IMG/VR virus record: IMGVR_UViG_3300017739_000067
Span: 1-29,719 of that record
Strand: one strand, 5' to 3'
DNA from: a virus
Length of the DNA stretch: 29,719 nt
Of the stretch, positions 11,555 to 13,328 are shown one piece after another (position 1 is the first letter of the stretch; every line of letters starts with the position of its first letter). The notes below the pieces were generated by a model. It saw nothing but the letters and a program-made list of their open reading frames with translations. It made no database searches and was not told the origin of the DNA. The translations under genes and the position numbers were made by a program.

Positions 11555-11626
11555 CATTTAAGTGTTTCATATAAGTGTATTAATCATATTTAACTAATTA
11601 TCATTTATATGTATCATTTAAGTGTT
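11555..11626. repeat. 12-bp direct repeat in the late-operon leader
   Basis: The 12-mer CATTTAAGTGTT occurs at 11555-11566 and again at 11615-11626, exactly 60 bp apart. Both copies lie between the leftward promoter and the first late gene, so they would be in its 5' leader. They could be protein-binding sites or RNA elements; AT-rich coincidence is a weaker explanation for an exact 12-mer this close. Confidence 0.5.
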
Positions 11627-11637
11627 AGTTATACATA

Positions 11638-11666: not shown

Positions 11667-12396
11667 GTACAAATATTTTTATTTATGTGTATTTCTGCTG
11701 CTGTGTGGCAAAAATGCTACATTTTACTAGTTTTACCTGTATTCAACAGTTGTATTAGTGGTTAACACTCTAATTTTCCCATCTGTGTAGTTCTCCAAGC
11801 ACGTATACGTACACCCCCCATATGACGCCTGCCTGTATACCCTTGTATTCTATCATTTTTCCTAGTTTCAAATAAAAAATACCTTCAAAGCCTTGAAAAC
11901 TCTACATTTTTTATGCTTCACTTTAGCTAAGTCATTGATTTTACTACCTTTTATATGCATTAGTAAACTGATTATCTAACAGTTACCCTTTAAACTGTAT
12001 CAAATAACTACCTAACCCCTTGTTTTTACTGCATAATATACCCCTGTGAGTATAAAACCTTTTTTTTGTATAGTATAGTATCAACTAATCAACTAAAATA
12101 ATTCAAATAAAATATCCAATAAAAACAATCACTTAACAAATTAATTCAAATTATTTCACTTTTTTTTAATTATTCGCTTTACATCTACGTTCTTTTTTGC
12201 AATACTTCAAAACATCAGAAGGGCAATAGCTTTTCAGATAGTAGCAAAAAGAAAGTTTTTAGTTTGAGAAAAGCGATCTTTTAATAAGCAAGTAAAATGT
12301 TAGTCTTATTAATCGCATCAAAACAAAAGAAAAAGTTTCTAGTTTTAAGACAACCGTTATAATAACAACCTTCTTAAAACATTTTTAAAAAACTAC
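11667..12396. other. AT-rich non-coding control region
   Basis: About 730 nt without a credible coding frame. Visible elements are a 10-bp perfect palindrome ACGTATACGT at 11801-11810 next to a C run, several homopolymer T/A tracts (12060-12070, 12160-12170), a long bulged hairpin at 12273-12316, and a repeated core AAGTTTYTAGTTT at 12253-12265 and 12333-12345, 80 bp apart. Repeats and hairpins in AT-rich DNA between divergent arms would suit a replication origin or regulator-binding sites. There is no direct evidence for either. Confidence 0.6.
12273..12316 (+). other. Bulged 12-bp hairpin upstream of the ncRNA promoter
   Basis: GCGAT (12273-12277) pairs with ATCGC (12312-12316), and TAATAAG (12282-12288) pairs with CTTATTA (12305-12311). 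A 4-nt bulge on one side and a 16-nt loop complete the structure. No long T run follows on either strand, so it is not a standard terminator. It could be a cruciform/origin element or part of a longer transcript. Confidence 0.5.
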
Positions 12397-12425
12397 TTGA
12401 CGGATAAAAAGAAATTTGCTCTAAT
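12397..12425 (+). promoter_or_regulatory. Sigma70-like promoter of the structured RNA
   Basis: TTGACG (12397-12402) and TCTAAT (12420-12425) are 17 nt apart, 10 of 12 consensus positions. The predicted start at about 12432 falls just where base composition and hairpin density change to those of the RNA-like tract. Overlapping AT-rich hexamers make the exact -10 uncertain. Confidence 0.6.
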
Positions 12426-12431
12426 GATAAT

Positions 12432-12851
12432 GCGAAAAACGAAAAGAGAAACGACAACTCTATAAAATGGTGCTGAGTGCAGACTTAAAGTAAACTAAAC
12501 CTATCAAGGGCAAATTCCCTAAATACGATAGATGCGAATGCTTACCCTAAATGTGGGCAAGACATGGGCTAACTAGGTGTGCCAAAATAGTGGTAACCTT
12601 CTAGACTAAACAAGTGCCAAGTAACAGGCTTGTGGAATATGGGAGAAGTGCGACTACAGAAATCCTAGGGTGGTCAATGGTAAGTGGGCGAGAAATTAAA
12701 AGAGACTAGTTTTGTGTGTTGTCTAGTCTGCCTTCCCTTAATAACTTGATCAAGTGGGAATCAAAGCGAAAGCAAGGAAAAATCTACACTACTAGATTAA
12801 GTGAAAAGTTAGCTATGAGTTTAAGTGAAAAACACTTGGGTTGTATAACTA
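12432..12851 (+). ncRNA. Candidate large structured non-coding RNA, about 420 nt
   Basis: The tract has no open reading frame and is distinctly more GC-rich than the flank (hand counts of 35-45% in successive 60-nt lines, against about 17% in the line from 12061). It has its own promoter. Local helices: CTATC/GATAG (12501-12505/12527-12531) enclosing AGGG/CCCT; CTG/CAG (12474-12476/12480-12482); ACAAG/CTTGT (12610-12614/12629-12633) continued by CC/GG; AGACTAG/CTAGTCT (12703-12709/12723-12729). A three-way junction is closed by CCTT/AAGG (12731-12734/12774-12777); it contains a CCC/GGG plus ACTT/AAGT arm and a GCGAAAGC tetraloop hairpin (12766-12773). Further helices are AATCTA/TAGATT (12781-12786/12793-12798) and AGTTA/TAACT (12807-12811/12846-12850) enclosing AAGTG/CACTT. 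ACCCTA (12544-12549) could pair with TAGGGT (12666-12671). Not recognised as tmRNA, RNase P RNA or group I intron. Size and setting recall large phage RNAs such as GOLLD or ROOL, but no homology is claimed. Confidence 0.7.
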
Positions 12852-12909
12852 AAATAAATACCTAATCGTATCAAGATATATACGTCACTTAATTGAATTT
12901 TATTTTAAT

Positions 12910-12937
12910 TTGACATTGTGTTATTAAAGGGTATAAT
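12910..12937 (+). promoter_or_regulatory. Consensus sigma70 promoter for the rightward early arm
   Basis: TTGACA (12910-12915), 16-nt spacer, TATAAT (12932-12937): both hexamers are perfect. The -10 box lies in the loop of an inverted repeat AAGGG/CCCTT (12927-12931/12939-12943), a possible operator or early hairpin. Transcription starting near 12944 leaves a leader of about 30 nt with AGGAGA before the first gene. Confidence 0.88.
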
Positions 12938-12974
12938 GCCCTTAACTTAACAACCATTCACAGGAGAATGCAAC

Positions 12975-13328
12975 ATGGCTATTAAAACAATCAATGCGAC
13001 TTTTTGGAAGCAATCAACAGGTTTAACAGGTCAAAATTTGACTGAGTCTAACCAAAAGAAATTTGCTAGAGTAGCTAAAAAGTATAAGCAAGTTACTGAA
13101 AGTTCATTATCTAAGACTAAGCTTTACAAGGCTAGTCGAGTAGCTTCAAGACAAATCAAAAAAGAATACGGTGCGAGAATTGGTAGCACTAGTATTGCGA
13201 CTTTTGAATTGTTATTGACTGCTATTAATAATGATTTAAATGGGGTTAAACACTCAATTGAATTTGGTGAGTTTAACGTCAAGTCTTATGTAGACTTTGC
13301 TAATGCTAATACTCGAAAGAAAGCATAG
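12975..13328 (+). CDS. First early gene, unknown basic protein
   Basis: A 117-residue basic protein preceded by an AGGAGAATGCAAC leader. It contains FWKQSTGLTGQNLTESNQKK, then a Lys/Ser-rich helix and STSIATFELLLTAINNDLNG, ending in a region with FNVKSYVDFANANTRKKA. No known motif is visible. As the promoter-proximal gene of the early arm under the strongest promoter in the window, it may act early against host functions or as a regulator; this is inference from position. A very stable hairpin follows the stop. Confidence 0.8.
   Translation: MAIKTINATFWKQSTGLTGQNLTESNQKKFARVAKKYKQVTESSLSKTKLYKASRVASRQIKKEYGARIGSTSIATFELLLTAINNDLNGVKHSIEFGEFNVKSYVDFANANTRKKA

Follow-up and report, generated by a model that had tools for sequence, protein, structure and literature searches.

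The window analysed here is a 29,719-base IMG/VR virus contig. Its terminase large subunit (TerL) is 81.3% identical to the Puniceispirillum phage HMO-2011 homologue, and its DNA polymerase is 63.0% identical to the HMO-2011 counterpart, which identifies the virus as an HMO-2011-type phage. Phages of this type are reported to dominate, and to be widespread, in the ocean (PMC9038755); the terms noncoding, intergenic and promoter are absent from that genome paper. The window also carries head-tail adaptor/portal, DnaB-type helicase, methyltransferase and ribonucleotide reductase genes. The tract of interest sits in a 1.45-kb divergent junction between a leftward arm (terminase, portal) and a rightward early arm, with the following features.

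12397 to 12425, plus strand: sigma70-like promoter of the RNA, TTGACG (12397-12402), 17 nt, TCTAAT (12420-12425); a start at about 12432 is inferred
12432 to 12897, plus strand: structured RNA of ~465 nt, its limits inferred from promoter spacing and the last conserved helix
12910 to 12937, plus strand: separate early-gene promoter, TTGACA-16-TATAAT, 12/12 consensus
12975 to 13328, plus strand: first early gene, 117 aa, of a family that lies behind 28 of 38 RNA copies

The GC content at 12400-12800 is 0.38-0.44, versus 0.24-0.28 immediately upstream, and the cumulative GC-skew minimum of the stretch examined falls at the divergent junction. Iteron-like CATTTAAGTGT repeats (11555-11633) adjoin a perfect leftward promoter (11666-11638), and the structured RNA overlaps none of them. 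Similar CACTTAAGTG-like repeats are present in the HMO-2011 and CRP-345 junctions. The AT-rich segment at 12250-12396, upstream of the RNA promoter, has a consensus fold that beats column shuffles whichever strand is taken; only 3 of its pairs are double-changed.

The 117-aa protein encoded at 12975-13328 has the family motif WKQSTGLTGQNL, reaches the cut-off of no PHROG or Pfam family, and has a distant relative in HMO-2011. AlphaFold predicts a helix bundle for it (pLDDT 74), which matches no PDB structure significantly and has no recognisable fold. It had been considered as an RNA-binding partner, and was dropped for want of a Pfam family at cut-off or a significant PDB match. The -10 element of the early promoter lies inside a dyad, AAGGGTATAATGCCCTT (12927-12943), whose arms change together in homologues (ATGGG...CCCAT in L259, TAGGCAT...ATGCCTA in L257). 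The dyad might be an operator-like site with changing specificity, although this is inferred from sequence alone.

No open reading frame of 50 or more amino acids is found between 11521 and 12975, and none is consistently open across 41 homologues. ARAGORN detects neither a tmRNA nor a tRNA in the window. At the gathering score the window matches no Rfam 15 family, and the only three matches at E up to 10 are on the minus strand, irrelevant and at chance level. Similarly, no match is found among the homologues at the gathering level, and Rfam covariance models give no relevant match to three diverse members at E up to 10. Several claims of an initial annotation of the locus held: the tract lacks a coding frame, with no conserved coding potential across homologues; it is richer in GC than its upstream flank; and it matches no known family in Rfam 15.

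Folding of the single sequence gives no support on either strand. On the plus strand, the minimum free energy does not beat dinucleotide shuffles (z = -0.13), and the minus strand has z = -1.56. The RNA is not unusually stable. Because the single-sequence fold is at shuffle level, helices read off one sequence are no evidence, and homologues were needed.

A search with the neighbouring gene at 12975-13328 as query yielded 11 viral contigs, and the tract aligns in all 11. Further homologues came from iterated profile searches over loci from two more neighbour genes and from the P9 loop motif, whose pattern UUUUGUNNRUUGU occurs in 36 IMG/VR stretches. The collection comprises 41 distinct homologous sequences, counted as 44 IMG/VR contigs besides the window (45 copies in all). 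All homologues occupy the same early-gene junction in the same orientation, just upstream of the early operon, and the distance from the RNA to the first early gene is short (tens to about 190 nt). They split into group A, which resembles the window, and more distant groups (B and others) with a common core and swapped modules. Peripheral insertions (in L009, L011, L170/L176 and L112) and module swaps occur among copies in which the core is kept. Two homologues have a tRNA gene ~1.1-1.5 kb downstream of the RNA (L200:4737-4807 and L204:4736-4806).

Several candidates were rejected. L108 is a weak match (11 bits) in which none of the motifs of the family was seen, and the viral match L055 is at chance level. 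The 15-mer TGCGACTACAGAAAT as a search probe, and AGGGTGGTCAATGGTAA in bacterial genomes, returned chance matches only. No earlier description of the RNA was found in the literature searched. Large virus-wide RNA predictions exist, and those outside that search may list fragments.

A structure of 88 pairs was written from the window and the group-A alignment. The elements of the RNA are given below; A2 denotes 13 group-A sequences aligned by sequence only, and the swap test asks whether a sequence's own 3' arm fits its 5' arm better than does the 3' arm of another sequence.

12445 to 12461, plus strand: P0, 5' hairpin AGAG/CUCU; 100% of cells paired in A2, two-sided changes in 3/4 pairs
12474 to 12487, plus strand: P1, hairpin UGAGU-GCAG-ACUUA; swap test 0/5000
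12501 to 12531, plus strand: P2, CUAUC/GAUAG with inner GGG/CCC; 100% paired in A2, with two-sided changes
12540-12545/12680-12685, plus strand: P3, long-range helix GCUUAC/GUAAGU that closes the core domain; 100% paired, 5/6 pairs double-changed, swap test 0/2000
12551 to 12565, plus strand: P4, hairpin AUGU/ACAU; 95.9% of cells paired in 37 sequences, 4/4 pairs double-changed
12556 to 12583, plus strand: PK1, pseudoknot of P4 loop GGCA (12556-12559) with UGCC (12580-12583); swap test 0/5000
12611 to 12632, plus strand: P6, hairpin CAAGU/GCUUG with conserved CCAAG loop; 80.5% paired in 37 sequences, 5/5 pairs double-changed, swap test 0/5000
12652 to 12675, plus strand: PK2b, possible helix GACU (12652-12655)/GGUC (12672-12675); swap test 146/5000, weak
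12662 to 12684, plus strand: most conserved core stretch, AUCCUAGGGUGGUCAAUGGUAAG, whose 3' end is the P3 3' strand; invariant over the A1 sequences
12704 to 12728, plus strand: P9, hairpin GACUAG/CUAGUC with near-invariant 13-nt loop UUUUGUNNRUUGU; 99.1% paired in 37 sequences, compensatory changes
12731 to 12777, plus strand: P10 module, CCUU/AAGG, CCC/GGG, ACUU/AAGU and GC-GAAA-GC; covaries where present (A2)
12796-12804/12885-12893, plus strand: P11, 9-bp helix AUUAAGUGA/UCACUUAAU that closes the 3' domain; 4 pairs double-changed in A2, swap test 0/5000
12818 to 12842, plus strand: P12, hairpin with conserved CUUGG; 85% of cells paired in A2
12867 to 12884, plus strand: P13, hairpin CGUAU/AUACG with loop CAAGAUAU; 95.4% of cells paired in A2, 3/5 pairs double-changed

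In A2, 94.2% of cells hold standard pairs, and 26 pairs show two-sided changes. Neither value is reached in any of 500 shuffles, and slid structures are 34-41% paired with 1-4 double-changed pairs. Among 37 sequences that include the divergent groups, 69.5% of cells are paired versus 34-39% for slid structures, and 344 cells carry two-sided changes versus 153 in shuffles. Because the structure was derived from group A and is hence favoured there, 14 group-B sequences were folded without the window. Unprompted, RNAalifold recovered P0, P3, P4, P6, P9, P11 and P13 from these sequences; 38 of the 80 consensus pairs are double-changed, and column-shuffled alignments reach at most 7. The swap tests gave 0/2000 for P3 and P9, and 0/5000 for PK1, P6, P1 and P11. 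A coding control alignment from the same phages showed no excess (6 double changes versus a shuffle maximum of 6). Kinship among the sequences makes covariation counts optimistic, but the effect lies far outside every control.

G-U cells outnumber A-C cells by 99 to 22, an excess that shows the structured RNA to be on the plus strand. The tract is therefore very likely a conserved structured non-coding RNA, and the proposal that it is a new large structured RNA held, with strong covariation among homologues and plus-strand polarity. Because the fold is kept by matched mutations in at least 44 related contigs, the element can with high confidence be expected to work as RNA, although its function and transcription are inferred.

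The core domain is closed by P3, which encloses P4, PK1 and P6 and can be extended by C12546-G12679. Its pair 12540-12685 is the strongest covarying pair overall. The PK1 pseudoknot is invariant within group A and covaries between groups (GACAG/CUGUC, GAUAG/CUAUC, AAUUC/GAAUU, ACUUC/GAAGU). P1 varies among homologues as AAGU/ACUU, GAGU/ACUC, AGCC/GGCU and GUGU/ACAC, and a 5-bp hairpin at the P0 position covaries in group B (A6 columns 17-43). P11, which encloses P12 and P13, takes the forms CUCAAU/AUUGAG and CCCGA/UCGGG in group B. PK2a (12640-12644/12663-12667), which overlaps PK2b, was dropped after a swap test of 1530/5000.

The P10 arm is absent in L002, L003, L004 and L005 and replaced in group B, and is thus a peripheral, replaceable module. 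L198 and L199 (L198:2760-3325) present a natural module swap, in which an unrelated stem, CUACAG/CUGUAG, and another loop stand in for the otherwise near-invariant P9 hairpin. An extra covarying hairpin, P15, follows P11 in group B, close to the early promoter (about 3235-3295 in L204, and equivalents). It has an asymmetric internal-loop motif, GCGCUAGUC...GACAGUUAAGC, and covarying stems, occurs in most divergent members, and is missing from the window and its nearest relatives. The exact form of the P15 motif is found only on RNA-bearing contigs.

The initial annotation fared unevenly on anatomy. The local helices it reported are real, but they were under- and mis-described, and the comparative data were decisive. 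The hairpin of its GAAA three-way junction exists (12766-12773); its loop is longer in L010 and L176, and the whole P10 arm is missing from L002-L005. Its tetraloop receptor failed, since both CCCTAAAT copies and the TATGG are present in the window but are not conserved in homologues. Its 3' limit of 12851 was too short, since P11 reaches 12893 and the RNA extends to about 12897.

Both promoters it proposed, at 12397-12425 and at 12910, are present. TTGAC occurs upstream of the RNA in 34 of 39 homologues. For 25 of the 39, the -35 hexamer is followed after exactly 17 nt by a T....T hexamer (shuffles average 0.23, maximum 2), and for 21 by TA...T at this spacing. The conserved -35 element and spacing are good evidence that the RNA has an independent sigma70 promoter; transcription itself is inferred, without transcript data behind it. 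The stretch from the RNA to the early promoter holds no predicted intrinsic terminator, so the 3' end could arise by processing, Rho or read-through, and a discrete end is unproven.

The RNA was not found in the cultured phages searched. Searches of 50,697 GenBank phages with three diverse members gave no relevant match. Covariance-model searches did not find it in five complete genomes (HMO-2011, CRP-345, CRP-9, CRP-1 and Vibrio phage D274) or in five further junctions (CRP-603, CRP-207, CRP-2, CRP-13 and ctYwJ313), and neither an unfiltered covariance search nor nhmmer revealed a divergent copy in the cultured phages searched. Because model R1 detects known members strongly (118-176 bits at full length), this empty result is informative. 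The absence of the RNA from HMO-2011 and the cultured relatives searched implies that it is not essential to the phage group. The junctions of cultured HMO-2011-type phages (L243, L245, L246, L276, L277, L278, L281) are 0.9-1.5 kb long, mostly unannotated and noncoding, with other content. Common to them is a conserved block of another kind (around GTGTATATACGTATAACG...ACCCC...GGCCC), which may be a further RNA or the origin.

The first genes behind 38 RNA copies belong to six unrelated families, and therefore the RNA is not tied to one gene. The commonest of these families has a distant relative in HMO-2011, where the RNA was not found.

With a covarying multi-helix fold, a pseudoknot and no coding capacity, the RNA has the structural and noncoding hallmarks of a large structured phage noncoding RNA. 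GOLLD is a large pseudoknotted phage noncoding RNA of unknown function, with marine members and with conserved and less conserved regions (PMC12286853, Nature 2025); GOLLD and ROOL, both large phage RNAs of unknown function, form RNA-only cages (PMC12286853). The new RNA is like GOLLD in being a large phage noncoding RNA with a pseudoknot, but neither the window RNA nor its homologues match the Rfam 15 GOLLD covariance model. Many GOLLD members exceed 800 nt, versus about 465 nt here. GOLLD lies near tRNA genes, whereas the new RNA sits at the early/late junction of HMO-2011-type phages and the window has no tRNA, although L200 and L204 have one 1.1-1.5 kb downstream. ROOL is likewise a large structured RNA with pseudoknots from phages and prophages, but its Rfam 15 covariance model is unmatched, its length and motifs differ, and the window has no tRNA island. 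The RNA is best regarded as a new family of large structured phage RNAs, GOLLD/ROOL-like in style but unrelated; for a discrete abundant transcript, the conserved promoter is the only sign.

Homology, conserved fold, strand, conserved promoter, lack of a coding frame and fixed genomic place are shown. The role is inferred, and we favour, with moderate confidence, an early, independently transcribed, trans-acting accessory RNA, of which the transcription, 3' end, trans action and partner all remain inferences. Early in infection, host sigma70 RNA polymerase would initiate at about 12432, from the promoter that belongs to the RNA. The product would fold to give a domain of 5' hairpins, a pseudoknotted core bounded by P3, the P9 hairpin and a 3' domain bounded by P11. 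Once folded, it may act in trans, either as the scaffold of an RNP or as a complex of RNA alone, serving as an accessory early factor through its conserved loops CGAA, UUUUGUNNRUUGU and AAUCUAC.

That the folded RNA acts as such is suggested by its conserved single-stranded motifs, pseudoknot, variable periphery and own promoter. Trans action is favoured because the first genes are so diverse and because the commonest of their families occurs in HMO-2011, where the RNA was not found. Against this reading, the constant position and orientation ahead of the early operon would fit a cis leader as well, the early promoter is not preceded by a terminator, and no partner protein has been identified. 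A bolder possibility is that this is the first family of a whole class of early-expressed phage RNA machines, forming a pseudoknotted RNA-only or RNP particle. Such a machine, conceivably catalytic or involved in counter-defence, would stand apart from every Rfam family and from GOLLD, ROOL and OLE, and it might be an accessory module of some HMO-2011-type marine phages.

The main rival, which remains possible, is a cis-acting early-operon leader. Polymerase from 12397 would read through the RNA into the early genes, and the RNA might, with the same standing, modify that polymerase (put/EAR-like antitermination) or sense a signal. The fixed position and orientation close ahead of the first early gene and the missing terminator support a leader, as do the many homologues that add covarying P15 near the early promoter, with the exact motif confined to RNA-bearing contigs. 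However, with the perfect separate promoter at 12910-12937 downstream of the RNA, most early transcripts would lack it. In addition, the following gene differs among six families, and the fixed position may reflect common descent only. The put (HK022) and EAR elements are likewise folded RNAs between a promoter and a downstream operon, and put elements are far smaller than a ~465-nt RNA with a pseudoknot. The new RNA is much larger, has a second strong promoter between it and the operon, and matches no Rfam antitermination family.

A replication-origin transcript, which would prime or license replication at the divergent junction in the manner of RNA II, is unlikely and only weakly supported. 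The junction is the cumulative GC-skew minimum of the stretch examined, and the iteron-like CATTTAAGTGT repeats are nearby (11555-11633). However, the skew switch also tracks gene orientation, the junctions of HMO-2011-type isolates are long yet lack the RNA, and the RNA overlaps none of the repeats.

It is very unlikely that the RNA belongs, in highly diverged form, to one of the established classes (RNase P RNA, tmRNA, group I intron, GOLLD or ROOL). The likeness to RNase P segments is limited to short by-eye similarities in the core (AGUGCGAC..GAAA, GGUAAG..GCGAGAAA), and RNase P RNA has conserved P4 elements, which were not seen. No covariance-model match was found at the gathering level, and none relevant, including RNase P, at E up to 10 with three diverse members; the RNase P identity was dropped after these scans. 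ARAGORN finds no tmRNA, with its tRNA-like domain and tag reading frame, and no Rfam match or interrupted gene points to a group I intron. Finally, a DNA-level or chance structure, suggested only by the single-sequence fold being no better than shuffles, is all but excluded by the covariation, the G-U bias to one strand and the positioned promoter.

Very few large structured phage RNAs are known and their functions are open; the RNA described here adds an unrelated family whose promoter and fold, including a supported pseudoknot, are defined and which has dozens of diverse homologues. Its placement at the early-gene junction makes its function, as a trans factor or a cis leader, testable, and alignment quality suffices for structure probing, for cryo-EM and for searches of metatranscriptomes. 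The unannotated noncoding junctions of HMO-2011-type phages can thus hold real genes.
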